Positions 1,093 through 39,839 of a DNA stretch of 64,000 nt are shown piece after piece (the stretch's first letter is position 1; the number at the start of each line of letters is the position of its first letter). This DNA is from Undaria pinnatifida (taxonomy: Eukaryota; Sar; Phaeophyceae; Laminariales; Alariaceae). The position numbers and the translations under genes were made by a program. The notes under the pieces are model-generated. The model was given only the letters and a program-made list of their open reading frames with translations. It made no database searches and was not told the origin of the DNA. The DNA is taken from positions 4,400,867 through 4,464,866 of the forward strand of contig JABAKD010000017.1 in assembly GCA_012845835.1 (NCBI GenBank), written 5' to 3'.

Positions 1093-2113
1093 GCAAGATG
1101 GGTGTCGTATTAAAAAATCCTTTCGAGCAAGGGCAAACACCAAAAAAAGCTACAGCTTAGCGGTGCGAGTGTGGAGGGTGGACGGTGTGGAGGGGGCAAC
1201 GTGGAGCATTGCAGGGAAGGGGATTTTTTTTTTTTTTCGGCGACAGGAGATGAAAGCGGGATCCCAAACTAATGCTCACAAGTTCAAACAACACAAATGT
1301 GCAGCAAAAGAAGAGGGTGGTGAGGAGGGGACAGGGGGTGCGGTAAAGGTGGGTGTCGGGTCGGAAAGTACTGTGCTCAAAAATCGTGTGAGCATAGCAC
1401 ATTCATAAGCACCAGCAAAACACAACAAAAACACAACGCAGCAAACGTACAACACAGCAAAAGCGAAGCACAAGCACGTGCAGAAGCCCAAGTACAGCCC
1501 AAATGCATCTCGAAACCCAACCGCTAAAACCACCTCCAATTAGTACAGTGCCGCAACACACAAGCCCACCCCAACCCCAAACAACGCAGCCAATAACAAA
1601 ACCACAGCCACCAGCACAACCACCAAAGCAACAATCATAGGCAAAGCGACCACCACCACCCCCACCACCACAACAGCACAACCGACAAAAAATTAGCCAC
1701 CACGATCATCACCATCTCCAAAAACACCGCAATCATCATCACCATCACACCACCAACACACGTTGACGTAGAATGGCTTGTGGCTGGCTTATGATACCAG
1801 AGAGGGAAGAACCAATTACTGACGCCATAACCATGAACACATCCATCACAACATCGCAACCACTCCACCACCACCATCAACACAACCCACCACTATAACA
1901 ACCCCCATCACCACCATCACTTCAGCAGCTACTACCATCAATACCACAACCACCACAACCACCACAACAACAACTACCCCCATCCCCACCCCCACCCCCA
2001 CCCCCACCCCCATCCCCACCCCCACCCCCACCCCCACCCCCACCACCATCCCCACACCAGCACCACCGCCACCATCGGCACAACCACCAACGCTACATAC
2101 AAGCAAACCTCAC
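1093..2113. repeat. Low-complexity CA/CCA-rich stretch downstream of the CHI-like gene
   Basis: No coding exon is recognisable. The plus strand is rich in CAA, CCA and CAC triplets, with a (CCCCCA)n tract at about 1976-2045. Long open frames here reflect simple composition. The missing last exon of the chalcone isomerase-like gene would be expected in or beyond this stretch, but I could not find one that continues the phase. Confidence 0.7.
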
Positions 2114-2238
2114 CTCTTAACTGTCCCCGCATCTTTGCCATTCACGCTGACGCAGAGCGCCCCCGGCTTGCAGACGAAGCCGAACTGCATTCCCGCTTTC
2201 GCCGCCCCCTCCTTTCCAACTGCCTTCAAAAGGATGTC
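2114..2238 (-). CDS. CHI-like exon 5 (penultimate, last one visible)
   Basis: The 125 nt exon lies between acceptor GTACAG and donor GTGAGG. It encodes DILLKAVGKEG through GALCVSVNGKDAGTVK and ends in phase 2. A good donor implies a further exon, usually carrying an AF..VYL-type helix in this family, which is not seen downstream. Confidence 0.82.
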
Positions 2239-5200: not shown

Positions 5201-6042
5201 TGAAAGACGCGGGGTACGATAGGGGTAGCTGCTATGTTTTATCTGGTTCCTCGCTTGCAGAGCTCGTTCCCTTCTGGTCTTTGCCCCTTCCCCCTCCCTA
5301 TATATCATCTATGCTCTCTTTCCCACAAACACTCCCCCGCACCCCCCCCCATGTGCAGATCATGCTATACTTCGAAGGAGATGTTACTGGTACTGCAATG
5401 CAGGTAGTATTTAGTGCTTGCTTTTTTGCCATTTTGCACGCTTTGTTTCGGCCTACTTTTTGTGACCGCACAGGTCAAAGTTCAGGAAAACTGGCTAGTG
5501 GGAGAACATCATCACATCATGACAAAATCACACAATCACAAGGTCAGTAAGATCGCTGACTGTAGGCCGCCGACTAGTTATTATCGCCGCCAAGCCCTAT
5601 CGCGAGAGCATCATCACAAACGCAAAGGGCAGCTTAACCCCTTTACAACCGGAAACCCGTTTTTGGAGACAAAATTACTCGGATTTAGTATAGGGACGGG
5701 TTCGGGGGCTCCAAAGGGGTTAACCCTTAACCGGTAATCGAGACAATGAGAGTCACTGTGTACGATATGAACATAACGAACCCCAGCCCTAATATCTAAC
5801 CCTCACATATTCAACCAACGTTTCGGGCTAGCTCTTCTCGTCTCGTATACAGTATGCGTCAACCATACTGCCGAATAAGTGGTAAGGCCTACTGCACAAT
5901 CGCACCTGCTGGCACTGCCGCCGGGGAGGCTGAGCTTCTCCCGAAAGGCGATCTTCGTCGCCTTTTCGATAACGTCCGCCTCCACGGACCCAGCCAGGAA
6001 CACGCCAACCATAGCCAAAATTGCCGCCGTTGCGAAATTCAT
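2114..6042 (-). CDS. Chalcone isomerase-like protein, 5 exons, 3' end not found
   Basis: Five minus-strand exons join in phase: 6042-5906, 5091-4978, 4044-3966, 2774-2667 and 2238-2114. All borders are GT-AG, and intron phases are 2, 2, 0, 0 and 2 (the last open). The product is 187 residues plus a split codon. Residues 1-22 are a hydrophobic signal-like leader ending SVEA. Then come LSLPGG (38-42), GTGVRVKK (49-56), VKVYAVGLYV (62-71), LKMAREV (112-118) and CVSVNGKDAGTVK near 175-187. This order matches the chalcone isomerase-like fold seen in bacterial and algal CHI-like and fatty-acid-binding CHI relatives. R53 and Y65 are candidate ligand contacts (inference). The start is the first ATG upstream and begins the leader. 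A last exon of roughly 30 residues is expected but was not identified, so the gene may be truncated. True CHI activity is unproven; a lipid-binding or accessory role is equally likely. Confidence 0.82.
2667..2774 (-). CDS. CHI-like exon 4 (VLKMAREV helix)
   Basis: The 108 nt, 36-codon exon has acceptor GGATAG and donor GTCAGT, phase 0 at both ends. It begins VLKMAREVQTEKMVSALAES, a helix and strand signature of CHI-like proteins, and ends SLDAFQ. Confidence 0.85.
3966..4044 (-). CDS. CHI-like exon 3 (small linking exon)
   Basis: The 79 nt exon lies between acceptor TAACAG, preceded on the coding strand by a long G run, and donor GTGAGT. It encodes GDDAESLGKNDGFFSR through FEKTL. It is needed: exon 2 ends in phase 2 and exon 4 must start in phase 0, and only this exon bridges them without a stop. 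It also fills the 25-residue gap expected from the family. Confidence 0.8.
4165..4690. repeat. Degenerate 10-11 bp satellite (AGCGTTCCGT)n in CHI-like intron 2
   Basis: About 45-50 imperfect tandem units of GCGTTCCGTCA or GCGTTCCGATA type run from just after the T-rich block at 4150 up to 4690, inside the intron between CHI-like exons 2 and 3. No coding potential is inferred. Confidence 0.9.
4978..5091 (-). CDS. CHI-like exon 2 (core beta strand region)
   Basis: The 114 nt exon lies between acceptor AAAAAG and donor GTGAGC and is in phase on both sides. It encodes GTGVRVKK and KVYAVGLYVEEKGAA, the most diagnostic part of the chalcone isomerase-like family in this gene. The acceptor has a weak pyrimidine tract. 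Confidence 0.85.
5634..5723. mobile_element. TTAA-flanked 90 bp MITE (family B, piggyBac-like ends)
   Basis: The unit begins TTAACCCCTTTACAACCGG and ends GGGGCTCCAAAGGGGTTAA. The first 11 bases of both ends are perfect inverted repeats. TTAA at each edge fits the target duplication of piggyBac-type transposases. It lies in CHI-like intron 1. No transposase is present, so it is non-autonomous. Confidence 0.8.
5906..6042 (-). CDS. CHI-like exon 1 (start, signal-like leader)
   Basis: The 137 nt exon runs from ATG (6042-6040) to donor GTGCGA. It encodes residues 1-45 plus two bases. The leader MNFATAAILAMVGVFLAGS is strongly hydrophobic with small residues before the likely cleavage site (SVEA/D). 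No earlier in-frame ATG exists, although the frame is open back to 6165. Confidence 0.8.
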
Positions 6043-7030
6043 GATGGCGTCGGAGCTGACTTTGCCTTTGACTTCTGTCTTTGGCTTTTGTCGTGTGCTT
6101 CTTGTGGTTTGACTCTGTCGTTGGCCTTGTTTAGTCTTGCCCAATGGCGTTCGAGATGAAATCACAAATTGGAGAAAATGCTCAAAGTTAGATAGTAACC
6201 GTCGCCGCCGCCGCTGCTGCTCCTGCCACTGCTGCTGTTGATACTTCTACTGGCTAAATGCTTGTTGCTGTTGCTCTGCACTCTTGGTGTGGCGTAAGGT
6301 GATGACTGTTTTATCAGTGAGGCTAATTGTCACTTTCCCCGTCCTGTTCTATCGCATGGTGGGGTTTCAGGAGGAGTCAGGCCAAATGAGGGGGGAGGGG
6401 GGGAGGGAGGGAGCATGGGGGCGGTAGGGGAGGGGCATGGAGGGGCGTGGAGGGCGAGGTTGGGGAGGAGGGACGGGGAGTGGCGAGGAGGTGCGGGAAG
6501 GGGCCAGTCAGGGCGACGCAGGAACAAAACCAAAATCAATAAAACAAGGCAACACGGTGGCAACTTTTTAGGGAGGGGGGACGGAAACTTTGCCAACAAA
6601 ACGGAATGCTGAAAAGCAGGCCGCAAGAAAGAGGGACATCAACGGTGCCTGCCACGCGTGCAAGTGCAGGGGGGCGGTCGACCAAGCAGGTCACACCGCG
6701 GTCACCTAGTTTATTAGCTCATACCAGTTCGATCGCAAAAATAGGGAGAAATTGCTGGAAATAAGTACCACCAATACTAATGTTGTGAGGGGATTGGGCT
6801 CTTGCACAATCAATATTCGCCTTAATTCGAACCGATTGGTGTTGTTTTTACACCAGGCACGTTTCTGAGCCTCGTTCTGTTGCTGAAAGTGCGGGAGCGC
6901 GAGTTGGAACAAAAACTATTGACGGGCAGCGGGCATGTTCGCGTACGCGACAAGTACGAACCCTCCTGGGACCCAGAGGTCTAGCGATCGAAACAAGCAC
7001 GAGGACGAGGTCGGTCCCCTCGCCCGTTCA
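6043..7030. other. Upstream of the CHI-like gene; no further gene seen
   Basis: The region holds CTG-type triplets near 6200-6270 and a G-rich block at about 6385-6520. It may contain the 5' UTR and promoter of the minus-strand gene, but no convincing core promoter motif was found. Confidence 0.5.
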
Positions 7031-24105: not shown

Positions 24106-24159
24106 ATGGGGATATGTTCGAGCACGCTGTCGGCGGAGGACAAGGAGGCGATGAGAAAG
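24106..24159 (+). CDS. G-alpha exon 1 (lipidation signal)
   Basis: 18 codons, [18 protein letters not shown], then donor GTGAGG (phase 0). A TRIM retroelement starts 6 nt after the exon ends. Confidence 0.95.
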
Positions 24160-26153
24160 GTGAGGTGTGGTGGAAACACGAGTTTAGAAGGAAATAACTC
24201 AAGCAGCATATGTTGTGCAACATTTTTAGTCTACTTCCTCACAATGGCGTCGCGGACAGGATGTGAGATTATGAACAGTGAGGTCGCTGGTTCGATTCTC
24301 ACCGTCTTTCCCAGAAAAAGAAAAAAGGGGACTTTCTCACGTTCAAGAATCTGTAAAACTCGACCACTTAAAAACAACGATGAGAGCAATGTATAGGATC
24401 ATCGCAAGTCACTCCAATACCGAAAAAGTGGCATTGGATCCTGGATATCTCATCGGGGTTCCTGACATAATGTGGGGAATATGTCAGGTTTAGTGGGGGA
24501 GAAATGTGGTGGAAAAACGAGTTTAGAAGGAAATTACTCGGGTAGCATTTGTTGTGCAACATTTTTAGTCTACTTCCTCACAGAGTGAGGAGGCTTTGTA
24601 TTCCAAAGGGGGAGTTGTACCAGGGAGATGAGTTTTTCCTGCTGTGGCACGGGCGGGCGTAATCATGGTACCAATGCATGGTCGTTGTCCGTAGGACTAT
24701 AGGCCCTTGCATCCGTCCAATGCCGGGGCGGAGCAAGTCGGGCTTTCACCAAGCATGAAAACGTTGCGTGCACCGCGAGGGGAGGGGGGATGTGATTGTT
24801 TGTGCGTGTTGTTTTGTATTTAGTAATTTCTGTTGTTTTGGCTCGTCGCTTGGTAGTGCTTCGGCGGAGGACTGGGCGGCGTGGGGTTGGGGTACGGTGG
24901 AAGTGGAAGAGCGGGAGTTTTTTTTTTCGTGTTGCTTGAGCGTTTGCTCTGTCTGAGCTCCGTCCGTGAACCCCTTTCGGACTTAGCCCCTTCAGGGCCT
25001 CAAAACCCCTCCGCATAATAATTCGAAGCAATGTGTCTAAAGAATAAACGGGTTTCCGGTTGTAAAGGGCGTTAAGACGCAAAAAAATGGCAGAAAAAAC
25101 TGACGATTACAGAGTCGGCGACGTGAAGCGACCCGACCTACTTCTGGTGTAGGAGATGTGCTCATGAACTGCATCGCAGGAAGCTGTTAGGCAAAGCAAG
25201 CGTGAGGCATGAAGATATTCCGATTGCCTCAAGCTTTTCCTATTAATAGACGTTTGATTAGATCGCGCTCGCCGCTTTTTGGTCAAGAGTATGTAACCAC
25301 ACGGCGCTTTACGCAATAGTGCCATGTAATAGTCACCCTTCCGTACGGGATTTCGTTCCATGTTTCTGTTTATTTCTGTTTTTTGCGGGATAGCTTGAAA
25401 ACCGTACCGTTACCGCTTGACACATGAAGAAAGTGGATATATATATAGTATCGTTAATTTAAATACTACCGATACACAGCCCTAATTTATAGTATGTAGC
25501 AGCACTGCGCTTTACGCAATACTACTATTGGTGACCCTTTCGCACGGGATTTCGTTCCATACTTTTATTTTTCGCGGGAAAAAAATGAAAACCGTACCGT
25601 TACCGCTCGACAGACGAAGGAGGTGGAGGCGGCTAATGCCACCGCCTTTCGTACATACGGGAGTTCGTTCCATATTTCCGTCTTTCGCGGGGGGAAAATT
25701 GAAAAACCGCACCGTTACCGCTCGACAGACGAAGGAGGTGGAGGCGGCTAATGCCGCCGCTTTCCAGAAGGAGCAGGAGAAGATCAAGCTGCTGCTGCTT
25801 GGGGCGGGAGAGTCGGGGAAATCTACGATCTTCAAGCAGATGAAGGTAGGATACTGTAGCAGCAGCCGTGCACTTGCTTTTAAACTGCACACGTTTGTGA
25901 GACTAAACGGAAATTGGTCCGTTTTCTAGCTGCACCCGTGTTTCGGCAGTCCTTTTTTCTGCAGTGGAAACGCTAAGCCGTACCATAATTTGCGCGATGA
26001 AAACGCAGGCGCACACATTTGTGAGACTGAACGGAACTTGGTCCGTTTCTAGCTGCACCAGTCTTTTTTTCTACAGTGGAGACGTCAGCCGTACTGGTAC
26101 CATAATTGGCGCGATAAAATCGCAGGCGTTTGCCGTGGGTGGGGGCATGACTA

Positions 26154-26184
<31 letters not shown>

Positions 26185-29100
26185 TATTTTGGCAGTCCAT
26201 TTTCTGCAGTGGGATGTAGATGGGTGAACATATCCGTGCAATGTGAAGGAATACACACTCATATATGACCTAATAAAAATAAAGATGCACTCCAGCTGTG
26301 AGATCGAAGATTTTGTCGAACTCATCTTTGCAAGCTGTGTGTGACACCCCGATCGCGCGTATTATACGAGAGGGCATGTATTTCGTATGCACGGAGGAAG
26401 TTTGTTCCCCTCAAAATCAACGCAGTGTTTTAGAAATGCCTGTTAGTAATTAGCCTTCCGTTGGAAAGTTTCGAGAACCCTTCCCCGTGCACTCCCAAAG
26501 CGATTTTTTTTCGAGATGTTTTTTTAGCTAACAGAGGACTTCCGTCGCAAACAATGTCATGCTATGCGCAAAACTTGATAGAACCTTCCTAATGTGGGGG
26601 CGGTGTCCCCAGAGCCCTATCGACGACGCCAAATGTAGGGCGGTGTCCCTAGAGTCCTGTCGACGACGCCAAATGTAGGGCGGTGTCCCTAGAGTCCTGT
26701 CGACGACGCCAAATGTAGGATGGTGTCTCTAGAGTCCTGTCGACGACGTCAAATATAGGGCGGTGGCGGTCCCCAGAGTCCTGTCGACGACGTCAAATAT
26801 AGGGCGGTGTCCCCAGAGTCCTGTCGACGACGCCAAATGTAGCACGGTGTCCCGAGAGTCCTGTCGGCGATTCCTGTCGGCAACGCCAAAATGTAGCGCG
26901 GTGTTCCTAGAGTCCTGTCGACGACGCCAAATGTAGCGCGGTGTCCATAGAGTCCTGTCGACGACACCAAATGTAGCGCGGTGCCCCTAGCAGGTTATCT
27001 CTTGTGTGGTTGTGGTGTGGAGGACCCGCCGAGGTGGGTTGATACCTTGGCTCCACACGGCATGGAGTGAGGGACGTCTGGTGACCTTGCACTTGTGTAT
27101 AATGAGGCGGTAGTATCTAGGGGAAGGGACCCTCATGTCCATGCACGCCTTTTGTCAAATTTATTCGACTTTTTAACTTTTACCTCTGCACTCTCAAAAG
27201 GGGTTGATGTATACCGGGTATGTGAAACCGTTATTTCCCAATTCTCGCGGGTGCGCTTAAACGACCAGATCTTGTACGGGGCGGTTTCAATGGACGAAAA
27301 GAAGCAAATAACGCCCGTTGTCTACAGCAACACCATCATGAGCATGAAGGTCCTCGTGGAGCAGGCAACACTCCTGGGAGAAGAGGTATGTTTTTCTTTT
27401 TTGTCTGACCAAGGACCTGAACCAAGCCTGGGACGATTTTTGATTGGTAGTTTTACACGAGGTGCCTTGTTGTTAAATATTCGATATTCGTCCCTCGTCA
27501 AGATATTCGGTTGGATACCTTTTTTCGGCCGTTCTTTTGGCTACGTGGAACATTCCTGGGAGGGGAGATACATGATTTGTGCCCGCGACCAAATACCTGA
27601 GACAAGACCCGTGACAATTTTGAGTGATTTTGAGTATCCTTATAAGACATGCAGTATCTTGGTGTTTTTCGGCCGTTACTGATCTCTCGTCAAGACGTTG
27701 TGCTGGATACCTTTTTTTCGACGGTTAATTTGGCTTCTTCACGAGACTCTTGGGAGAAAAGACATTATTTTTCTTTTGTCTGACCAAGTACCTGAGCCAA
27801 GCCCCGTGACAATGTTGGGTATCATTATAAAGGCATGAACTTGCCAGCCGTTAAACTGGTCTCTCGTCAAGATTTTGGTGTTGGATACCTTTTTTTCGGC
27901 CGTTATTTTGGCTACGCCAAGATTTTGGTGTCGGATACCGTTTTTTCGTCCGTTATTTTGGCGACGCCATGATTTTGTGTTGGACGCCTTGTTGTCGGCA
28001 GTTATTTTTGCTACGCCAAGATTTTGCGGTGAAAACCGTTTTTTCGGCCGTTACTTTGACTACGTCACGACATTCTTGGGAGGAGAGTATTATGCTTGTG
28101 GTTTGACCAAGTACCCGTGCCAAGCTCGTCACCATCGTGGATGCCCTCGTATCTTGTTTTTGGCTGTTGTATACTGGGCTCGTCAAGATTTTGTGTTGGA
28201 TCCCTTTTTTTCGGCCGTTAGTTTGGCTACGCCACGACAACTTTGGGTAGAAGAAACGTGCTTACGGTTTCAGCAAATGCCTATACCAAGCCCGTCACAA
28301 TATAGGATGCCCTTATTATCTTGTGATCCGGCTGTTGTGTACAAGACTTGTCAAGATTTTGTTTTAGATACCTTTTTTTTCGACCGTTATTTTGGCTCTG
28401 TCGCGATTAGGATAACCGTCACCGGCAGATGTTGGAGATTTTTTTGTGTCCCTTGTATCGAGTATGAATTCACAGCGGTTATTGCGAAAGGGGCAGGTTT
28501 TGGGAAAGGCACGTAAAATGATCGTCGCGTGACATGTTCGATCGGAAGATCCAACGGGCGGGCGAAATCATTCATCCCAAGATATTCCGATCATCCCGGC
28601 GAGATTTGCGTAATTGTGTTGACCGCCTTACATAGAAAAATGCACTGCTATTCACTTTTTTTTAGTGTGGAGATTTGTTTTGTTTAGCGGTGACTTGGAG
28701 TCGCGAGGGACGAGGTGGATGCTATGGTTTCCTTCCACCCTCCTCCTCCTCGTCGTCCTCGTCGTCTCACTTTTTTACAGTGTGGAGATTTGTTTTGTTT
28801 AGTGGTGGCTTGGAGTCGCGAGGGACGAGGTGGATGCTATGGTTTCCTTCCACCCTCCTCCTCCTCGTCCTCGTCGTCTCACTTTTTTTTTAGTGTGGAG
28901 ATTTGTTTTGTTCAGTGGTGGCTTGGAGTCGCGAGGGACGAGGTGGATGCTATGGTTTCCTTCCACCCTCCTCCTCCTCGTCGTCCTCGTCGTCCCCCTC
29001 CTTTTGCTTCGGTGGGTAACGAAACATATCTGCCAATGTCAGAGACCGCCTTGCCTTGCGCGCTCTTAAGACACCTTCACGTTCCTCACCCGCAACAAAG

Positions 29101-31480
29101 TGAAGGAACGCTCTCTCCTTGCCCCACATCGCGTACGAGAAAAGTGCCATTTGGGCCCTCTCCTACAAAAGGGGACCAGGCGTTTAATTGCACGTACGTG
29201 CAAGGTTTTCCGATTTGCACGTAAGCTCAAAGCTGCCCCTGCCGACCTCGAGAGCAGACCTCGAGCCCCCCTAAGGGTTGGGGTTAAGTTTGGGGTTAGG
29301 GTTGGGGTTAGGGTTAGGGTTAGGGTTAGGATCAGGGTTAGGGCTAGGATCAGGGTTGGGGTTAGGGTTGGGGTTAGGGTTAGGGTTAGGGATAGGGTTA
29401 GGATCAGGGTTAGGGATAGGGTTAGGATCAGGGTTAGGGTTAGGGTCAGGGTTAGGGTTAGGGTTGGGGTTGGGGTTGGGGTTAGGCTTAGGGTCAGGGG
29501 TAGGGTTAGGGTTAGGGATAGGGTTAGGATCAGGGTTAGGGTTAGGGTTGGGGTTGGGGTTAGGGTTAGGGTTAGGGTTAGACTTAGGGTCAGGGTTAGG
29601 GATAGGGTTAGGATCAGGGTTAGGGTTAGGATCAGGGTTAGGGTTAGGGTCAGGGTAGGGTTAGGGTTAGGGTAGGGTCAGGGTCAGGGTAGGGTTAGGG
29701 TTAGGGTCAGGTGTGGTGTCGGGTTAGTCTAGGTAGCGCAACCGTCGTTTTGTGCGGACCTGTTGTTTTTGTTGTTGTTGTTGTTGTTGTTGCTGCTGTT
29801 GCTGTTGTTGCTGTTGTTCTGCAGATTAACTCGCATAATCACGTCCGTGGTCACAGGACAGGCATCAGTCACTCTACAGAGCTGAGGAATACCCCCAGGG
29901 GAAAAACACAAGCAGACCAGTTTGAGATACGGTGCCACTCGTGGCAGTGGCCCACCTCCACAGTGGTGAACCATTGCGGAAGCTTCACATGGGGAGTCGC
30001 CATACATAAATCGCTGTTGAATTTACGTGCAACTCTGAAAGACCTTGCACGTACGTGCAACTTCGCGGGGGCCGAGAAAAGGGGCTTTGTTCTATCTCAT
30101 AGAATACTTGTAGGGGCTCCTCATAGAATATGTGCAGGGGCTTCGTATTCTCTCCTTGAATAGGGGCTTCATATTATCTGCTAGAATAAGGGCTTCATGA
30201 CGTCTCATAGGAAAGGGGCTTCGTGTTATCTCATAGGATAGGGGCTTCGTATTATCGCGTAGGATAGGGGCTTCGTATTATCTCGTAGGATAGAGGCTTC
30301 GTATTATCTCATAGGATAGGGGCTTCACGTTGGCGTCGACGTTGTTATTGTATCGGCTGTATCTGATACTTCTGTGTGTGTGTGTTTTTTTTTCTTCAGT
30401 AGTCCGTTTTTTTTTTTTTTTTTTTTTTTTTCCACTTTGCCCTGGAAATTGTGGCGAACAGGAAATCGTTTGAGATGGTCTCTCTCTCGCATGGTAGATT
30501 GTTTTTGATCGGTCTTAGGCTCGTCATTATATTTTTTTGTTGGGTAGCTTTTGTTTCCGCCGTTATTGGCTACGTTACGAGTTTGGATACCGTTTTTCGG
30601 TATCTTTTTTGTTTTTGTTTGTTTTCCTGAGGGGAAATATGCCGTGTGCAACGATATTGTGTTGCATTTTTTTTTAATTCGGCCGGTTTTGGCTATATAA
30701 GCCACGACTTAATATACTGTATACTGTACCTGGCACCGTTTTAGCGACTGTACCTTGTTTTGCGAGGTTACCCTTGTTACGAGTGTACCTTTTACTCGTT
30801 CTCTGTGTTCCGTCTTCAGGAAAAGATAGCATGCAAGGAATCGTTCGAGATGATCTCCAAATGTGAAGGCAGACCCCACGGTTTACGATACCTTACCTTT
30901 TTTGCGTTTTCTGTTTTTGTTTTCCCCACCCAAGAAATTGTGGGTGCAAGGAAGCGTTCGATACGATTGTCGACTGTCAAGACAGACCCCACCATTTACG
31001 ATGCTGCACCTTTTTTTGTGACTGTACCTTTTTTGCGTTGTCTGCTTTTTTTCCCACCCAGGAAAATGTGGCGTACAAGGACTCGTTCGATATAATCGTC
31101 AACTGTGAAGACAGCGCCCACTATTTGCGATACTGTACCTTTTTTGCGACTGTACCTTTTTTGCGCTGTCTGTTTTTTTTTCCCCACCCAGGAAAACGTG
31201 GCGTGCAAGGAAGCATTCGATATGATCGTCAACTGCGAAGACAGCGCCCCAATCGACATGGTACTCGGCCAGGCCATCAAGGACGTCTGGGCGGACCCAG
31301 CAATGCAAAGGGTCAGTTAGACGGAGGGAGGGGGGGGGGGGCTCGTTTCTTGCATAGCCGTAGTCTTGAAGGCCATCGCCGTAGTCTTGAAGGCCATCGA
31401 CCGTCTGGGGCGGAGGGAGGGGAGGGAACTCATTTCATGCATAGCCGTAGGTTTATAGACCATATACCTTTTTTTTTTTT

Positions 31481-31511
<31 letters not shown>

Positions 31512-34500
31512 AATAGACCTATGTCTGCGTATTAATGGAACACTCATCGACGATTAGTGTTCATACGTTCGCACTGCATCACGAGCAGGATTCCGTTGAC
31601 TGAGTCTTCACCAGAATGTTAAGGGGAGGAAAGGGGGAAGGGAGGGAGGGGAGGGAAGGGGAGGGAGCGGCGCGAAAACAGAGCACGACCTCACGTACAG
31701 GATAGCAACACCACGAGCGAACGCCAAGCGAGTAACCTTCGGCGAACCGCTGGGCCAAGTCCAACTAACTGCCTGGTGAAGCTGTGGTGGGTTTCTATTA
31801 AGGGGAAGGGGGGAGGGGGGAAGGGAGGGGAGGGGAGGGGGCGCGGGGAGTCATTTTTCACGTTCAGTTTTTCGCTTTCCTTTTCTTTTTGTCTTATGTT
31901 TTTGGCCTGTGATACATACGACCCTTCTTCTCTCCTCTATTTGTCAGATATGGGAGCGACGAGCGGAGTACCAGATCGTGGAATCGGTGAAGTTCTATTT
32001 CAACGAGATGGATCGGATCATGCAGGACGACTACCTTGCCACCCAACAAGACGTTCTCTTCTCCCGTGTTAGAACGTCGGGCATCGTCACTGAGCGGTGA
32101 GCCTTTGGTGGGCCAGGGGTGGGGGGTGGGGGGGGGGGCGTACTCATTTGTTGTATATTGCCTTAGTCATTTGACCATCGACCACAGGCCGGGGGGGGGG
32201 GGGGGGGGGGGTACTCGGTTTGTGCATGGCCGCAGCCGTGTGACCATAGACCCTTGCATCCCTACTATGCCGGGACGGAGCACATCGGGTTTTCACGAAC
32301 CAGGCAGGGCCGGGGGGTGGAAGGAACGGGGAAAGAGGTAGCCGACTCGACAGGTTTGGGTGGAGAGGAGCGGGGAGGGATCGGGGTGGGGGGATGGGTA
32401 AAGGGCGGGGGTGTTGGTGGAGGCGGGAAGCGGAGGGGGGAGTTGAAACTCGAACGGTTTCCCGGTTGTAACGCCGCTCTGCTATGTGTCGTTTCCCGTC
32501 TCGTTGTGTTCTCCGTTCCAATCCATCCCGTCCCGTCCCGTCCCGTCCCCGTTCCATCACGTTTCAATCCTTTCCGTCCCCGCGCCCCATCTGGCGCGAT
32601 GCGTTTGCGTTGCGGTGCAAATCAAATATGTCAGGAGACGGGGCTTTGACGCCTTGACCGACGGCAATTTTACGATACTTTGCGTTGACTGACGGCAGAC
32701 TACTAGGTTTTAGTGTGGAACGTTGACCGACGGCAATTTTCCGATAGTTTGCGTTGACCGACGGCAAACTACTAGGTTTTAGTGTGGAACGTTGACCGAC
32801 GGCAACTTTCCGATAATTTGCGTTGACCGACGCCAAAGTATTAGGTTTTAGTGTGGAACGATCGATTTTACAACCTTGACTGACCGCTGGACGTTTTCCC
32901 GTGACTGCCCGTCTCCTGAAATGTTTGGCGCAAATGCTTGGAACCTCCCCCCCCATTCAGGTATGAGATTGACGGGTCGACGTTCGAGATGTACGACGTC
33001 GGGGGACAAAGAAATGAGCGTAAGAAGTGGATCCACTGTTTCGATAACGTTACCGCCGTCATCTTCGTGGCCGCCTTGTCCGAGTACGACCAGTGCCTTT
33101 TCGAAGACGCATCCACTAACCGGTGAGAGACGCATACCACGGCAGAGGGTGTACTCAACATTCATGCATGGCCGTAGTGGTATGACCATAGCTATTGGGC
33201 CATCGCAATCTTACAATGCCGGGACGGAGCGGGTCGGGTTTTTACCGACCGGGCAGGCTTTGCTTGCACCGAGCGCGGAGCGCCGTGAGGTGTTCGGTGA
33301 GTATCATAGCATGCCTCGGTAGGGGTGGCTTTTCTCTCTGGACCAATTTTTTTCTGACTCCCGGACAGATCATCGATTTTTCCCCCCCCTGATGACCTGG
33401 ACCGTTCGGAGGAAGATCTGTATGGTCTAGCTCATGTTGCTGGGTGGGAGAGACGCATGCCGCAATAAGCGTGGTTTTTTGTTGGCCAATTTTTTCTCCT
33501 GACACTTGGGCAGATCATCGATTTTTTCCCCACTTGATGATCTAGATCGTTCGGAGGAAGATCTGTATGGTCTAGCTCATGTTGCCGGGTGGGAGCGACG
33601 CGTGCGCCGCGGTAAAGGAGTGGCGCTTTTTTGGCCAAATATTTTTCCGACTCCCGGACAGATCATCGATTTCTCCCACTTGGATGATCATCGATTTTTT
33701 TCCCGCTTGATGATCTAGATCGTTCGGAGGAAGATCTGCATGATCTAGCCCATGTTGCCGGGTGGGAGAGACGCGTGCGGCCGCGATAGGGGTGGAGCTT
33801 TTGAGCCAGAATATTTTTCTGACTCCCGGACAGATCGTCGATTTTTCGCACTTGATCTAGATCTTTCGGAGGAAGACCTGTATGTTCTAGCTCATGTCGC
33901 CGGGTGAGCGCCGTACGGTCTGCGTGATCTGTCGCATGCTTCCTCGGTTGGATGTGTGCGCCACGTGTACAGATCCTGCAGATCTTCTCACGACGGCAGC
34001 TATAGGATCTATACGGTAGAGGATATAGATGATCCACAGTAGATTGTCGTCTGTCCGAGGTTGGATTTTGTTTTTTTAACGACATCATGTAGAGCTAGTT
34101 TGAACGACAGACGAGCCCCCTGAAATGCGCTACTAACCAAGACGTTTCACGGATCATGATCCGACCCACGGGCTGGGTGCCGGGTCATTAGGTTTCTAGA
34201 CTCTCGAGGGTCGAGTCCGGGCGGGTCGGGAGGTCTCACGGGACGGTTCGGTTCGGCTCGGGAGGCTCTGACTTCTCACGGTGTTTTTTGGTCAGGTCGG
34301 GTCGGACCACTTTGACCCGACACGACCGGCGAGAACTGACCCTTACCCGTGAAGAACCCTGCTAATAAAACGTTTTGGGGCAAAAAGGTTGCGATATTTT
34401 TCACGCGTATACCAGTGAAGCGTGAGCGCGTAGCAATGCGGTTAGGGGTCCTGCTGCCTGCGCCCGTCCCGCACGGTTCTTTGTGCATTTTTGGCGTTCG

Positions 34501-37500
34501 GACACCACCTTTATTTGTCATCGCCAACCAGTACGTGGCGGATGCCGTGTTCGTCAATTTTTTCCATCGTCATTTTTTTTTTTTTTTGCTCGGAAGTCTT
34601 ACGAGTGGTAAGCAGCTGTTACCAAACTACTTGGTACTTGATATACTTTTGGTTTTGTTTGTGTTTTTTCCCCGGGGTGTTTCTCCACTCCAGAGTGACT
34701 GGAGCCTGTCCTGTGACCACGGACTTGATAGTGCGAGTTAATGTGAGAACAACAACAGCAACAGCAACACTATCAATAACACTTGGTTGTCATACCGTTT
34801 GTGTAGAAGAATGCTCCGTTACGTTAACCCGCAGTACGGAAATGTCCATCGGGTTTGTAACGTGTTTCTCTTTTTCTCAAGGCTTAAGTTTGGGCGGAGG
34901 TACAGAGCTAGCTAGCTCCCTATGCAAGAGGAGCCTCAGGGAAGAGTGGTCTCCCCCCCTGCCATTTTGATTTTATTTATTTTTTCACACACTTCTACTT
35001 TCCAGCTTCTGGAAAGGCGTGGTCACAGGTGTCATCCTTCTCCCCCCCGGTTCTTGCCTTCAATATTTATCGCGCATAGGGTTCAGCAATTCCATTGCTC
35101 GTCGATTTTTCATCGAGTGATGCTAACTCACACTCTCGCGCTTCCCGCAAGTAAATTTGTGCACAAGAAAAGCCATAGCCTGTGACGAGATGCGGCTAAG
35201 TTGGCTGATCGAAAAAGCCCCTCAACTCGTTGCTTTGTGAAATGGATGGTGGGTTGGATGGAGGGACGCATGGGTGGGCTTGGCTGCCTGTCGGCGAAAC
35301 GTGTTGGCATTTTTCTTTGTTGATGGAATCAACAGCTCACGTTTTTTTGGGTTCGACGCGCTTTCTGCGCGCAACGTCTGCCTTGGTCGGTGAAAACCCG
35401 ACGTGCTCCGACACGGCATTGCAGGACTGCGAGGGTCTATGGTCCTACAGTACGGACTACAGCCATGCACAATCGAATGATTACCCCCGTCCCCGTCCCC
35501 CGTCCCTCCCATCCCCTCGCTACCTGGACGATCACGCCGCTTAAATGCTGACACAAAACTCTGGCGAATATGATGGAGGCGGTCGACTTCTTCCATGAGA
35601 TTTGATGTTTCTCCCCCCTCTTCGTGCCTCCCTTCCACCTCCGATCCCCTGCATGATCACGCCATGTTACCCCTTTAGAACGTGGGGTTTATGGGAACGA
35701 ATTGCTTCGAAATAGTGTGGCGTATTTTTCGCAATGGTGCGAGGGTTGATTCACTGCCGACGCAAAACTCGGCCAAGATGGTTGATGCTATCTCGAAAGC
35801 GATTTTCATGTTTCGCCTCCGTCCCATGCTATCCCCCGTCGCTTGTATGGTTACGCCTCTTAAATGCCGAGTCTAAAATATTTTCGTCTCTCTCCTCCCC
35901 CACTCCCTCCTTCCTCCCCCTCCCTCCCTCCCTCCCTCCCTCCCTCCCTCCCTCCCTCCCTCCCTCCCTCCCTCCCTCCCTCCCTCCCTCCCTCCCTCCC
36001 TCCCTCCCTCCCTCCCTCCCTCCGCCCTCCCTCCCTCCCTCCCTCCCTCCCTCCCTCCCTCCCTCCCTCCCATCCCTCCCTCCCTCCCTCCCTCCCTCCC
36101 TCCCTCCCTCCCTCCCTCCTCCCCCCTCCCTCCCTCCCTCCCTCCCTCCCTCCCTCCCTCCCTCCCTCCTCCCTCCCTCCCTCCCTCCCTCCCTCCCTCC
36201 TCCCTCCCTCCCTCCCTCCCTCCCTCCCTCCCTCCCTGCCTGCCTCCCTCCCTCCCTCTCTCCCTCCCTCCCTCCCTCCCTCCCTCCCTCCCTCCCTCCC
36301 TCCCTCCCTCCCTCCCTCCTGCCTGCCTGCCTCCCTCCCTCCCTCCCTCCCTCCCTCCCTCCCTCCCTCCCTCCCTCCGTCTCTCCCTCCGTCCCTCCCT
36401 CCCTGCCTCCCTCCCTCCCTCCCTCCCTCCCTCCCTCCCTCCCTCCCTGCCTGCCTCCCTCCCTCCCTCCCTCCCTCCCTGCCTGCCTGCCTCCCTCCCT
36501 CCCTTTCAACTCTTGTCCCTTGCATGATCATGCCTCTGGAATGCCGGGAAAAAATCGGCAGGATGATCGAGGCGATCGATCTCTTCAACGAGATCTGCAA
36601 CAACCGATTCTTCAGCGAATCGTCTATGATCTTGTTCCTCAACAAGAAGGACCTGTTCGCCGAGAAGATCCGACGGGTGAGAGGATAACGTACTGCTGCG
36701 GATACTGTTGTGGGCCAGAGTGCTAATACAGTAGGTTCTACTGCTGTGGCTGTTGTAGCTGCTGTACATACTGCAGCTGAATACTGATTGCAGTGGGCAC
36801 CCCGATTTAAGAGCGCCCAGGATAAGAGCTCTCGGGACGTAAGAGCGGTCAAATCGGTATGTCCCGTCTATACTAAGAGCTATATACTTCCCACTACAGC
36901 TAAGTGCAACCTGTAGTTAAAAGCGTTGTATCGGCTTGTCACGAGGCGCTCTTAAATCGAGGTACCCACGATATATCGTGAATGTTGTAGCTACTGCGGC
37001 TACTCGGACGACTGCTAGCTACTGCTCTTATGCCTCGGCGGCTACTACTATCTGTGGCACCTTGTTTCACGAGTGTGTTCCTTCCCTTACTACTTGTTTC
37101 CCTACTGTTTTGGCTGTGTATCTGCCTACTGCTGTGACTGCGTGCTTGCCTATTGCTGCTGCTGCGGCACTTTTTCTTTGCTTAATTCAGTAGGGGGGAG
37201 GGGTGTACTCAGTTTGTGCATGGCCCTAGTCGTATGATCATAGACCCTCGCATCCCGAATCTGCCGGGACAGAGCACGTCGGGTTTTCACCAACCAGGCA
37301 GGTATTGCTTGCACCAAGCGCGAACGCCGTGAGGTGTTCGGCGAGTCGCATGAAGGGTGAACTGCATCCTTCCAAGAACCGCTCGCAAGACGCACTTGGG
37401 CACCTTGTGCCTTCTTTCTTGCTTATGCATGACAGCGCCAATGAGTTACTTTGTTTTCTGGTGTGGCCGCTCCAGAGACAGCAATGGGCATCACCATGTA

Positions 37501-39023
37501 ACGGCCTCGTGGATGCCTTACCATATTCACACTAAGTGATACGATCATCCCCTTCAGTGGGGGGGGGGGGGGGGGGGGCAGTAAGGCGGTGGTGTACCAG
37601 GGCAATATGGCCGCCATATTTTGGGAAACCCGCCGTATTCATTCCGGGTTATGAGTGCGATTTTTTCCAAGTCGTGCCGAGCGATTTTGACACACCTTGT
37701 GTCGGGATACCGCCTTACTCAGACCGCCTTATGTCGGCATACCGCCTTACTCAGGCGGCCTTATATCGAGATGCCGCCTCACTCAGGCCGCCTTATGCCG
37801 GCATACCGCCCTTACTCACACCGCCTTATGTCGGGATACCGCCTCACTCAGACCGCCTTATGTCGGCATACCGCCTTACTCAGACCGCCTTATGTCGGCC
37901 TTATGTCGGGATACTCCCTCACTCAGACCGCCTGTGGCACGTAGTTTCACTAGTTGCCTGCTGTGTGAACGCGTTTCACCCGCTGCTGCGGCTACGCGCT
38001 TGCCTATTGTGACTACCTCTTTGGCGCGTTTATCTCGTTTAAATGCAGTGTCGCCCACCCAGCAAGGCCGTGGTGTGCAGGGTGCAGGGATAATATGGAC
38101 GCCTTCATGGGGGAAGCCGCACTATTCATTCCTGCGTTCGATTCCAATTCCCCGGTCGCGCCGAGCGACTTGACCGCCTTATATCGGGATACCGCTTTGT
38201 ATTGGGATAAGGACACCGCCTTATATGGGAGACCCCTACCGTGCTGCTGTGTTCCTTGTTCCGTCCCTCCCACCGTTCCAACCTTAGGTGGATATTAAGA
38301 GCGTGGAAAAATGGGCTGACTTTCCCGGCGAGCCGGGGGACGAGGAGGCGGGGAAGAAGTACTTCCTCTCGCTCTTCTTGAAGGCAAGGCCAGGATGCCA
38401 GACGTAGACGTAGGAGACGAGGGCTGTGGGGGGCAGGCGGTGAAATCGAGAAAAAAAAGGAAAGCGGAAGGGGAGGGGTGATGACGGCGGGGGGGGGGGG
38501 GGGGGGGGGGGGGGCATGGTTTACTCACTTTATGCACAGCCGTGGTTTTAAGACCGTAGACCCTCGAACCCTTACAATTCCGGCATGGAGCATGTCGGGT
38601 TTTCACCGACCAGTCAGACTTCGCGTGCGTCAGGGGAGGGGGGCTGGGTCGTGGCGGAGGAGGGCTGGGGAGGGAGGGGGCGTTGGGGATAGAGAACCTC
38701 GTGTTGTTTTTGCTGGGGCGTGTGTATGTACTTGCTGTGTTCGTGTAGTTAGTGAGATTGCGTCAATGGTGTATACCCGCGAATCGAAAATGTGTCCTGA
38801 ATTGCGTGTCTGCATGATCGTACAATGGTAACGCGCTCCTCCCTTCCCCCCCCACCCCCGCCCTGTGTTTGGTTGTTGGCCTCCGAAGGTGAACCAAAGC
38901 CCGGAGAGAGAGGTCTACAACCACGTCACGTGCGCCACGGACACGGAGAACGTCAACTTTGTTTTCAATTCTTGTAAGGATGTTATCCTCAGGAGCAACC
39001 TGAAGGACTCAGGCTTTGTCTGA
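24106..39023 (+). CDS. Heterotrimeric G-protein alpha subunit, complete, 9 exons
   Basis: Exons: 24106-24159, 25729-25845, 27269-27385, 31192-31311, 31948-32096, 32961-33122, 36562-36676, 38288-38383, 38889-39023. They join in phase to exactly 354 codons, the usual length of the family. MGICSS at the N-terminus fits N-myristoylation (G2, S6) plus palmitoylation (C4). G1 is GAGESGKS (43-50), followed by the helical domain (about 58-170). Switch I is RVRTSGI with catalytic R176 and Mg-binding T179; G3 is DVGGQ with catalytic Q202; G4 is NKKD (267-270); G5 is TCATDT (324-329). The C-terminus SGFV lacks the cysteine four from the end, so pertussis-toxin-type ADP-ribosylation is not expected. Role by family: membrane-bound GTP switch coupling receptors to effectors with beta-gamma. 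Start: first in-frame ATG, with A at -3 and G at +4. AATAAA lies 17 nt after the stop codon. Confidence 0.97.
24166..24582 (+). mobile_element. TRIM: LTR-retrotransposon miniature in G-alpha intron 1
   Basis: Two 78 bp direct repeats (24166-24243 and 24505-24582) start TGTGGTGG, end CTTCCTCACA and differ at about six sites. One base inside the left repeat a primer-binding-site-like TGGCGTCGCGGACAGG begins at 24245. A purine tract GTGGGGGAGAAA (24493-24504) abuts the right repeat. The interior is 261 bp and has no coding potential. GTGAGG occurs directly before the element and two bases after it, a possible imperfect target duplication. The size and signals fit a terminal-repeat retrotransposon in miniature. 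Confidence 0.75.
24655..24760 (+). repeat. Family C repeat copy 1 (G-alpha intron 1)
   Basis: It carries the shared blocks ATGCATGGTCGT, CCCTTGCATCC, TGCCGGGGCGGAGCA and TCGGGCTTTCACC. Other copies lie in introns 4-8 and in the 3' flank of the same gene. Confidence 0.75.
24968..25075. mobile_element. TTAA MITE family B, diverged (G-alpha intron 1)
   Basis: The right end AAACGGGTTTCCGGTTGTAA followed by AGGGCGTTAA is well kept. The left half (AACCCCTTTCGG, CCCCTTCAGGGCCTC) is diverged. Confidence 0.6.
25302..25728 (+). repeat. Tandem copies of the exon 2 acceptor and exon start
   Basis: Before the real exon 2 (acceptor CAG at 25726-25728) an upstream copy has the same acceptor CTCGACAG at 25606-25613. 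It is followed by about 35 nt nearly identical to the start of exon 2 (25614-25648), then diverges. A third copy at about 25348-25435 has CAC in place of CAG. Each copy is preceded by ACGGGATTTCGTTCCAT and ACCGTACCGTTACCGC-type sequence. Confidence 0.85.
25729..25845 (+). CDS. G-alpha exon 2 (P-loop)
   Basis: 39 codons from [12 protein letters not shown] to [13 protein letters not shown], carrying G1. Acceptor GACAG, donor GTAGGA, phase 0 at both ends. An upstream tandem copy of its first 35 nt with an intact acceptor is a potential decoy. Confidence 0.95.
25880..26140. repeat. ~125 bp tandem duplication after exon 2
   Basis: CACACGTTTGTGAGACTAAA and its downstream sequence to AAAACGCAGGCG recurs as CACACATTTGTGAGACTGAA through AAAATCGCAGGCG. 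A pure G run follows at about 26154-26182. Confidence 0.85.
26599..26995. repeat. 40 bp minisatellite, ~10 units, in G-alpha intron 2
   Basis: The unit is GGCGGTGTCCCTAGAGTCCT then GTCGACGACGCCAAATGTAG. The array ends 270 nt before exon 3. Confidence 0.95.
27269..27385 (+). CDS. G-alpha exon 3 (helical domain)
   Basis: 39 codons from [12 protein letters not shown] through [17 protein letters not shown] to LLGEE. Acceptor GACCAG, donor GTATGT, phase 0. Confidence 0.95.
27386..28400 (+). repeat. Intron 3 tandem copies of the exon 3 end and donor region
   Basis: Diverged copies of the exon 3 end (ACTCCTGGGAGAAGAG) and of the donor-downstream motif (TCTGACCAAGGACCTGAACC) recur near 27551, 27741, 28071 and 28236. 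They are separated by repeats of TCTCGTCAAGATTTTGGTGT and TTTTTTCGGCCGTTATTTTG. The copies have lost the GTATGT donor in different ways. Confidence 0.75.
28645..29010. repeat. ~110 bp tandem repeat, 3 units, in intron 3
   Basis: Units contain GTGTGGAGATTTGTTTTGTT, GGAGTCGCGAGGGACGAGGT, TGCTATGGTTTCCTTCCACC and a CCTCCTCGTCGTCC tail. Confidence 0.95.
29270..29712. repeat. Interstitial telomere-like (TTAGGG)n array
   Basis: About 440 bp of GGGTTA with variants GGGATC, GGGTCA, GGGATA and GGGTTG lies inside G-alpha intron 3. The degeneracy shows it is not a live chromosome end. Confidence 0.95.
30090..30335. repeat. ~28 bp tandem repeat, ~8 units, in intron 3
   Basis: Units read ATAGGGGCTTCGTATTATCT then CATAGG, with gradual changes. 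Confidence 0.9.
30444..31191 (+). repeat. Four upstream tandem pseudo-copies of exon 4
   Basis: Copies start near 30444, 30820, 30933 and 31062, before the real exon 4 at 31192. Each has the counterpart of GCAAGGAAGCATTCGATATG and of AACTGCGAAGACAGC. The copies at 30820 and 31062 keep a pyrimidine-rich tract and a CAG acceptor and read open for about 20 codons ([34 protein letters not shown]). All change to TTTRCGATAC-type intron sequence where the real exon continues. Confidence 0.9.
31192..31311 (+). CDS. G-alpha exon 4 (helical domain)
   Basis: 40 codons from [17 protein letters not shown] to [13 protein letters not shown]. Acceptor CACCCAG with a T9 tract, donor GTCAGT, phase 0. Only this copy continues to the [13 protein letters not shown] part. 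Confidence 0.95.
31320..31500 (+). repeat. Family C repeat heads just after exon 4
   Basis: Two partial copies follow G runs: CTCGTTTCTTGCATAGCCGT and CTCATTTCATGCATAGCCGT. GTCTTGAAGGCCATCG is repeated twice between them. Confidence 0.65.
31948..32096 (+). CDS. G-alpha exon 5 (end of helical domain, switch I)
   Basis: 149 nt: [18 protein letters not shown] then [24 protein letters not shown]. Acceptor TTGTCAG, donor GTGAGC, phase 2. It carries the catalytic arginine (R176) and the switch I threonine (T179). Confidence 0.96.
32139..32315 (+). repeat. Family C repeat copies (intron 5)
   Basis: A head at 32139-32190 and a fuller copy at about 32210-32315 (GTACTCGGTTTGTGCATGGC, ACCATAGACCCTTGCATCCC, TGCCGGGACGGAGCACATCG). 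G runs precede both. Confidence 0.8.
32640..32865. repeat. ~66 bp tandem repeat, 3 units, in intron 5
   Basis: Units contain GCGTTGACCGACGGCAA and CTACTAGGTTTTAGTGTGGA. Confidence 0.9.
32961..33122 (+). CDS. G-alpha exon 6 (switch II and core)
   Basis: 162 nt encoding the end of the split R186, then [35 protein letters not shown] and [14 protein letters not shown]. Acceptor ATTCAG after a C run, donor GTGAGA, phases 2 and 2. DVGGQR is intact. Confidence 0.97.
33148..33305 (+). repeat. Family C repeat copy (intron 6)
   Basis: TGTACTCAACATTCATGCAT, TGCCGGGACGGAGCGGGTCG, GGTTTTTACCGACCGGGCAG, TTGCTTGCACCGAGCGCGGA. This is one of the longest copies. Confidence 0.85.
33310..33905. repeat. ~145 bp tandem repeat, 4 units, in intron 6
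   Basis: Units contain CTCCCGGACAGATCATCGAT, CGTTCGGAGGAAGATCTG and CTAGCTCATGTTGCCGGGTG then GGAGAGACGC. The last motif resembles the exon 6 donor region (GGTGAGAGACGCATACC), so the array may be seeded by that donor (inference). Confidence 0.85.
34970..35185 (-). mobile_element. SINE family D, partial copy (intron 6)
   Basis: The body is kept (TTTCCAGCTTCTGGAAAGG, GTGGTCACAGGTGTC, ATCGCGCATAGGGTTCAGCA, TCTCGCGCTTCCCGCAAG). The tRNA-like head is missing. The A-tail side reads as a T-rich block at the left. Confidence 0.8.
35345..35505 (-). repeat. Family C repeat, inverted copy (intron 6)
   Basis: Reverse orientation: GGTGAAAACCCGACGTGCTC, CGACACGGCATTGC, AGGGTCTATGGTCC and CAGCCATGCACAA. 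It is the only minus-strand copy seen. Confidence 0.8.
35525..35880 (+). repeat. Upstream pseudo-copies of the exon 7 start
   Basis: Before the CCCT array, about 35545-35607 contains ATGATGGAGGCGGTCGACTT then CTTCCATGAGATTTG, a diverged exon 7 start, preceded by GATCACGCCGCTTAAATGCTG. About 35760-35812 has GGCCAAGATGGTTGATGC similarly. The upstream block of the real exon reads GATCATGCCTCTGGAATGCCG. Acceptors in the copies are altered or lost. Confidence 0.7.
35905..36508. repeat. (CCCT)n microsatellite, ~600 bp, in intron 6
   Basis: TCCC repeats are almost uninterrupted, with rare CCG, CTG and GTC variants. The array ends 53 nt before exon 7. The long proline/serine/leucine open frames here are trivial products of the repeat. 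Confidence 0.98.
36562..36676 (+). CDS. G-alpha exon 7 (NKKD)
   Basis: 115 nt: [38 protein letters not shown]. Acceptor TCGGCAG, donor GTGAGA, phase 2 in and phase 0 out. It carries G4. Confidence 0.96.
36793..36969. mobile_element. 177 bp palindromic element with ~23 bp inverted ends (intron 7)
   Basis: The left end GTGGGCACCCCGATTTAAGA then GCGCC matches the right end, which read in reverse complement is GTGGGTACCTCGATTTAAGA then GCGCC. There is no coding capacity. CAGTGGG at the left is reminiscent of pogo/Tc1-type ends, but a clean TA duplication is not seen. Confidence 0.75.
37195..37350 (+). repeat. Family C repeat copy (intron 7)
   Basis: GTGTACTCAGTTTGTGCATG, CATAGACCCTCGCATCCCGA, ACAGAGCACGTCGGGTTTTC, TATTGCTTGCACCAAGCGCG. 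Near full length, preceded by a G run. Confidence 0.88.
37590..38240. repeat. Family G: array of ~33 bp units (CCGCCTTATGTCGGGATA)n in intron 7
   Basis: A leader (GTTATGAGTGCGATTTTTTC, TGCCGAGCGATTTTGAC) precedes about eight units of CCGCCTTATGTCGGGATACC then GCCTTACTCAGA. A shorter second leader with a few units sits at 38095-38240. The same leader-plus-array structure is at 53290-53705, and inverted at about 44425-44521. Confidence 0.88.
38288..38383 (+). CDS. G-alpha exon 8 (followed by a GC donor)
   Basis: 32 codons, [16 protein letters not shown] then [16 protein letters not shown]. Acceptor CCTTAG. The only donor that restores the family sequence is GCAAGG at 38384 (AAG/GCAAGG). Reading on without splicing reaches a stop within about seven codons. 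Confidence 0.93.
38515..38635 (+). repeat. Family C repeat copy (intron 8)
   Basis: It follows a G run of about 25. Blocks: GGTTTACTCACTTTATGCAC, GACCGTAGACCCTCGAACCC, CATGTCGGGTTTTCACCGAC. Confidence 0.85.
38889..39023 (+). CDS. G-alpha exon 9 (TCATDT, C-terminal alpha5 helix, stop)
   Basis: 44 codons plus [47 protein letters not shown]. Acceptor CCGAAG. The last helix, which contacts receptors in this family, ends SGFV. Confidence 0.96.
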
Positions 39024-39040
39024 GCCTGAGGCGGAGAGAA

Positions 39041-39046
39041 AATAAA
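39041..39046 (+). terminator. Possible poly(A) signal AATAAA
   Basis: The hexamer AATAAA lies 17 nt past the stop codon (39021-39023). That would give a very short 3' UTR. A second AATAAA is near 39672, beyond the amplified copies. Confidence 0.4.
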
Positions 39047-39099
39047 GGGGGGCGGGGGGCGGGCGGAGGCGGTGAAGGGGAGGGGAGGGGGGGGGCGGC

Positions 39100-39780
39100 G
39101 GCTTCAACTTCTGTAGTGATCTTATCCTCAGGAGCAACCGTAAGGATCCGGGTTTCGTCTGCGCCGGAGGTGGCGGAGGGGGGCGGGGGGCGGGGTTGTT
39201 TTCGACTTCTGTGAAGATGTCATCCTCAGGAGCAACCTCAAGTATTCGGGTTTCGTCTTAGCCGGAGGTGACGGAGGGGGAGCGGGGGAGACTTCGTTTT
39301 TAACTCCTGCGAGGATGTCATCCTTAGGAGCAGCGGGGGGGGGTGGAGTGGAGGGGGAGGCGGGAGGGGGGGGGGGGGGGGGGAGTGTAATCATATAATG
39401 TATGGCTGTATCCTTGGGGCCATAGACCCACGCATCTCTACAATGCCGGGACGGAGCACGTGGGGTTTTCACGAACCAGACAGGCATTGCTTGCACCAAG
39501 CGCGAAGCGCCATGAGTTGTTCGGCGGCGGAGGAGCGGGGGGGGGGAAGGGGGTGGAGGCGGTGGATGGGGGGGGGGGGGGGGGGGGGATTGGGGGATTG
39601 TTTTCCCTCCTGTAAGGATGTCATCCTCAGGAGCAACCTCATGGCCTCGGGTTTTGCCTGAGCTGGAGGGGGAAATAAAGCGGGGCGGGGGTGGCGGCGG
39701 CGGGGGCGGGGATGCTGTCAACTCCTGTAAGGATTATATTCTTAGGAGGAACTTCGAAGACTCGGGTTTCGTCTGGGCAA
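39100..39780 (+). repeat. Five downstream tandem copies of the G-alpha C-terminal codons
   Basis: Copies at about 39104-39162, 39200-39262, 39299-39334, 39603-39661 and 39717-39776 each keep the counterpart of TGTAAGGATGTTATCCTCAG then GAGCAAC. In frame they read, for example, [48 protein letters not shown] with a stop, and CKDYILRRNFEDSGFV. None has an AG acceptor at its start. Most have lost the stop. Confidence 0.9.
39390..39525 (+). repeat. Family C repeat copy (3' flank of G-alpha)
   Basis: It sits among the amplified C-terminal copies, after a G run. Blocks: GACCCACGCATCTCTACAAT, CGGGACGGAGCACGTGGGGT, GGCATTGCTTGCACCAAGCG. Confidence 0.88.
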
Positions 39781-39839
39781 GAGGCGGAGGGAAAGTGGAG
39801 GGGGGGGGGAGGGGGTGTACTGCATGCTTATAGAGACGA

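Follow-up and report, generated by a model that had tools for sequence, protein, structure and literature searches.

Why should a gene carry, within its introns and beyond its stop codon, diverged fragments of the edges of its own exons? The question is raised by a G-alpha gene of the kelp Undaria pinnatifida, which lies in a window of 64,000 nucleotides (nt) on contig JABAKD010000017.1 of assembly GCA_012845835.1 (forward strand, positions 4,400,867 to 4,464,866; coordinates below are those of the window). An initial annotation of this window proposed a single process acting at the exon borders of this one gene. A different answer is very probably correct: short tandem duplications that are blind to exons lengthen the introns, and those that happen to straddle a border leave partial exons behind, sometimes with decoy splice sites.

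A gene model reconstructed from the sequence is supported by the Pfam family PF00503 and by brown algal orthologues. It spans positions 24106..39023 of the plus strand and comprises nine exons (24106-24159, 25729-25845, 27269-27385, 31192-31311, 31948-32096, 32961-33122, 36562-36676, 38288-38383 and 38889-39023). The model encodes 354 amino acids without a frame break, and its product matches PF00503 with an E-value of 8e-113; together with the orthologues, this bears out the nine exons originally described. The protein is colinear with its brown algal orthologues, that of Ectocarpus included, and the nearest named G-alpha proteins are those of Ectocarpus (89% identical), Ascophyllum (84%) and Scytosiphon (90% over 84% of the length). 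All splice sites are canonical except the donor of intron 8, where a GC dinucleotide is apparently used (38384-38385). G-alpha matches occur at six places in the assembly of 511,146,479 bases.

Copies of exon edges were sought by comparing each exon, extended by 300 base pairs (bp) on either side, with both strands of the whole window using blastn (E ≤ 0.01; exon overlap of at least 10 nt), and by more sensitive Smith–Waterman alignment against 100 dinucleotide shuffles. blastn recovered two copies on the acceptor side of exon 2, one on the donor side of exon 3, three on the acceptor side of exon 4 and five at the end of exon 9. Smith–Waterman alignment added an acceptor copy of exon 7, two further copies of exon 3 (three in total) and a weak donor copy of exon 1. 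The exonic part of a copy measures from 14 to ~65 nt. The diverged copies previously noted beside exons 2, 3, 4, 7 and 9 are real and lie on the sides described: acceptor for exons 2, 4 and 7, donor for exon 3 and past the stop for exon 9. The sets comprise two copies at exon 2, three at exon 3, three at exon 4 and five at exon 9; the exon 7 set is weaker than first described, as exonic bases occur in two of its four pieces, one of them weak. To the five affected exons, all upheld, exon 1 is to be added as a weak sixth.

The two exon 2 copies differ in divergence: the more diverged (25334..25437) retains 14 exonic nt and has lost the AG, and the less diverged (25536..25650) retains 35-36 exonic nt, 35/36 of them identical, together with the AG. 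The donor edge of exon 3 is represented by three copies (27547-27652, 27742-27820 and 28068-28142), which include only ~16-21 exonic nt each; the aligned donor GT is kept only in the third. At exon 4, three copies within 30759..31119 carry 53-59 exonic nt each, and the aligned AG is kept in the first and third. The exon 7 copy (35497..35604) has 36 exonic nt and no AG; its match at 35525-35604 is identical at 58/77 positions, a score reached by 0/100 shuffles. Three further pieces on the acceptor side of exon 7 follow at 35620..35881, and exonic bases are found only in the weak piece 35753-35792 (reached by 4/100 shuffles). A (CCTC)n tract of ~610 bp (35894-36504) separates the exon 7 copies from exon 7 itself, shortly upstream of its acceptor. 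The weak exon 1 copy, which derives from the donor edge (24858..24902), is identical at 37/45 positions (0/100 shuffles; z 4.6). All of these copies, and those of exon 9, are on the plus strand.

The five exon 9 copies, with adjoining non-coding DNA, occupy 39098..39800. Four reach the stop codon, which is kept only in copy 4; the exonic part contains an insertion or deletion (indel) in two of the five, and the aligned codons have gained no stop. Copy 3 stops short of the exon end, at the G-rich run that heads a dispersed repeat (39361..39520, limits approximate; plus strand; families D9, D10 and D13). As this run begins where the copy ends, insertion of the repeat probably cut copy 3. A short dispersed repeat, poly-G-headed in several copies, is found throughout the G-alpha gene (24716-24801, 32199-32330, 33212-33297, 37193-37324, 38509-38640 and 39375-39506; families D10 and D13), and is possibly a small non-autonomous element. 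The recurrence of this repeat, with one copy inside the exon 9 array, would suit an origin of the exon fragments by capture within dispersed mobile elements. However, the exon queries with their 300-bp flanks matched only nearby places in direct orientation when both strands of the window were searched with blastn. As each exon copy within the window was found only beside its own exon and in direct orientation, capture was rejected and is considered extremely unlikely.

Artefactual repetition was also considered. Mis-assembly that repeated one stretch would not give copies that differ from their exons by ~10-30%, and this divergence led to its rejection.

The arrangement of the copies is that of tandem duplication. 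Direct-repeat tandem arrays stand at the edges of exons 2, 4 and 9, with periods of 115, 129 and 98 bp, respectively. Duplication periods range from ~20 to 180 bp across the window and from ~98-195 bp at exon edges. Throughout the window, acceptor copies lie upstream of their exon, and donor or stop-side copies lie downstream. This is the outcome of tandemly duplicating a unit that straddles a border, since a unit across an acceptor places a truncated exon upstream and a unit across a donor places it downstream. An unbiased scan detected 27 local-duplication clusters over the window, of which only 3 (at exons 2, 4 and 9) were flagged as overlapping an exon; the exon 7 and exon 1 copies came from targeted searches. 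Tandem repeats, as scored by Tandem Repeats Finder (TRF), cover 18% of the window, 27% of the G-alpha gene and 15% of the remainder. The same scoring settings underlie a figure of 3.35% for the Ectocarpus genome, given with a median autosomal intron of 524 bp (PMC12477816); the kelp value describes a single window rather than a genome, and overlaps with transposons were counted differently in Ectocarpus.

Are exon borders preferred? With copies at six of the nine exons (weak at one), a process aimed at borders could be suspected, for instance through template switching at splice junctions or through damage at RNA:DNA hybrids. The 17 exon edges were compared with a 60-bp grid of points over the window, by scoring whether a local copy within 1.5 kilobases (kb) extended 12 bases or more beyond the point on both sides (significance against 40 shuffles). 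A spanning copy was present at 6/17 edges, compared with 99/214 deep-intron points of the same gene. Among the remaining points, copies spanned 8/16 intron points near edges, 2/16 exon points near an edge, 0/2 exon points elsewhere and 178/816 points outside the gene. Random draws of 17 deep-intron points gave a mean of 7.9 with a copy and P(≥6)=0.88, a rough value because grid points are correlated. There is thus no sign of enrichment at exon edges over intron points, and the proposal of a process acting at borders is not supported. That each set of copies starts at a different place and ends part-way into its exon, as had been described, is the pattern expected of random breakpoints.

Other genes of the genome bear on the same point. 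Two families were surveyed, with exon ends taken as the ends of homology matches rather than as proven splice sites. At five other G-alpha-like loci, 8/20 exon segments are accompanied by partial copies that retain 15 or more exonic nt (one tblastn segment, itself a copy, was omitted from the 20). Among chaperonin (TCP-1) exon segments, copies accompany 6/30 (the best 30 of 57 matches), versus 26/60 neighbouring windows of the same size, which may contain unrecognised exons. The geometry described above is repeated in all 11 copies of this exonic length at the G-alpha-like loci, and in all 16 chaperonin copies (three on the acceptor side, 13 on the donor side). The phenomenon is consequently not peculiar to one gene. 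A second gene recognised in the window gave a different result: a chalcone-isomerase-like gene of at least five exons (2110-6060, minus strand; PF02431, E=4e-8) has copies at 0/8 hand-placed edges tested and at 16/73 intron points. In one G-alpha paralogue (L013; G000:C34:14754001-14764000), a single middle exon has three partial copies on its acceptor side and one on its donor side.

A border-aimed process was rejected on these counts, as G-alpha edges are not enriched over intron points of the gene and chaperonin exons score below neighbouring windows. It is considered very unlikely, even though local duplications are up to about twofold denser within 1 kb of exons.

The fate of the copies helps to decide whether they serve a function. 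In the exon 9 array, changes private to one copy comprise 8 synonymous and 20 nonsynonymous, close to the 21% synonymous share that random change would give; those found in two copies are 2 synonymous and 2 nonsynonymous. Between exon 9 and three or more of its copies (38959-39786), 7 synonymous and 0 nonsynonymous changes are shared, as expected if the constrained exon 9 itself had moved. The exon 9 copies drift freely, and exon 9 itself has undergone synonymous change since their origin. Chaperonin copies differ from their exons by 59 synonymous and 111 nonsynonymous changes (35% synonymous), with indels in 8/16 and stops in 4/16. A synonymous share of 22% is expected if only a free copy changed; with a constrained exon evolving alongside the free copy for equally long, our own arithmetic gives ~36%. 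The observed 35% is near the latter value, and the chaperonin copies fit neutral decay.

Could the copies nevertheless be functional alternative exon ends, providing alternative G-alpha C-termini or regulated decoy (poison) splice sites? The aligned AG is kept in 1/2 exon 2 copies and 2/3 exon 4 copies, the GT is kept in 1/3 exon 3 copies, and no stop has arisen within the aligned codons of the exon 9 copies, all of which would accord with such a role. However, the copies are partial, the private changes in exon 9 copies look neutral, the stop is lost in 3/4 of those that reach it and 2/5 have an exonic indel. Functional ends were rejected on the partial copies, the neutral change in exon 9 and chaperonin copies and the lost stops, and are highly improbable. 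Decoy splice sites do exist beside G-alpha exons, and many others have been lost.

It is proposed instead that exon-blind tandem duplication accounts for the locus as follows. The kelp genome would produce many short direct tandem duplications, with breakpoints that fall independently of exons; the molecular event may be slippage, template switching or unequal crossing-over. A unit lying wholly within an intron would simply lengthen it. Where the unit crosses an acceptor, a truncated piece of the exon would be left upstream; where it crosses a donor or the stop codon, the piece would lie downstream. Function would stay solely with the copy that is continuous with the remainder of the exon. A selective filter would probably determine which events survive, since a fragment would be spliced out or lie beyond the stop, whereas a duplication internal to an exon would alter the protein. 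The surviving fragments would then drift neutrally, some of them holding a usable-looking splice site for a time. The demonstrated part of this explanation comprises the tandem geometry, the absence of a border preference, the recurrence in other genes and the neutral decay. The earlier suggestion that one process lies behind both the long introns and the decoys therefore survives in part: local tandem duplication lengthens introns and leaves some decoys, but it is most likely not aimed at borders.

Several observations weigh against exon-blind duplication. The duplication rate varies, as the uncopied edges of the chalcone-isomerase-like gene indicate. Local duplications occur at 25-34% of points within 1 kb of known exons and at 15-18% of points farther away across all six G-alpha-like loci; for the five paralogue loci alone, the values are 22-24% and 12-14%. 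A uniform process would not give this up to ~2-fold excess without dilution by transposons elsewhere. Such dilution far from genes would explain it, as would a link with transcription. Exon 9 also does not fit a simple clock: its 7 shared synonymous changes on ~13 synonymous sites exceed what ~10% private change per copy would predict, perhaps because the numbers are small, the array is old or the exon was replaced. Finally, the splicing-out of the fragments is inferred.

Several known systems resemble these arrays. Tandem exon duplication can give rise to mutually exclusive exons, which likewise place exon-derived copies in adjoining introns. Mutually exclusive exons, however, are full-length with both splice sites and a conserved reading, whereas the G-alpha copies are incomplete, with one border missing, and undergo neutral decay. 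A closer counterpart is the RNA-dependent RNA polymerase (RdRp) gene of potato, in which a tandem duplication across an intron–exon boundary created a new intron, according to PMC4974935. Both cases involve direct tandem copies of a unit that straddles a splice border, so the initial view that no described mechanism fits exactly is not supported. The potato case was one event that produced a spliced new intron; the G-alpha gene has several arrays of two to six units, in existing introns and past the stop, at both acceptor and donor sides, with no new intron shown. Introns may also be gained when an exon segment bearing AGGT is duplicated in tandem (Rogers 1989 and Hellsten 2011, as told in PMC4974935 and PMC2891723), and five novel intron positions in Drosophila are reported to stem, probably, from tandem duplications inside the reading frame (PMC2891723). 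These accounts share with G-alpha a short tandem duplication involving coding sequence, but the Rogers-type duplication, as related there, is wholly exonic and the G-alpha duplications straddle existing borders. No independent duplication wholly inside any of the nine G-alpha exons was found by blastn, Smith–Waterman alignment or the border test, the shortened copy 3 of exon 9 belonging to a border-straddling array. A literature search on partial exon duplication, border tandem duplication and brown algal or kelp intron growth yielded no report recognised as the same pattern, although absence from print is not claimed. Single border-straddling events have already been published, and it may be their frequency in this kelp that is new.

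That apparent frequency is the interesting residue: 8/20 and 6/30 (the best 30 of 57 matches) in the survey families, together with five or six affected exons among the nine of the G-alpha gene. A broader generalisation, put forward tentatively and with less than even confidence, is that short tandem duplication, denser near exons, is a main engine of intron growth in this kelp, that 1/5 to 2/5 of exons genome-wide carry decayed edge copies, that the spliceosome must therefore routinely ignore near-duplicate decoys, and that these fossils could serve to date both the growth of introns and changes in exons. Should the rate apply across the genome, a brown alga would offer a large set of natural experiments in splice-site competition, in each of which a true acceptor stands next to a decayed copy of itself, and would directly record intron lengthening. 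Gene prediction and homology searching in kelps can be expected to encounter such partial copies next to genuine exons, and several of them turn up in a tblastn search with the G-alpha protein.

Rfam and tRNA scans of the window gave 0 hits. Two further repeats occupy G-alpha introns. Intron 3 contains a 438-bp AGGGTT array (29274-29711), which in another register reads TTAGGG, the telomere-type repeat. Intron 6 contains a four-copy array with a unit of ~150 bp (33347-33911), the copies of which read as peptides.

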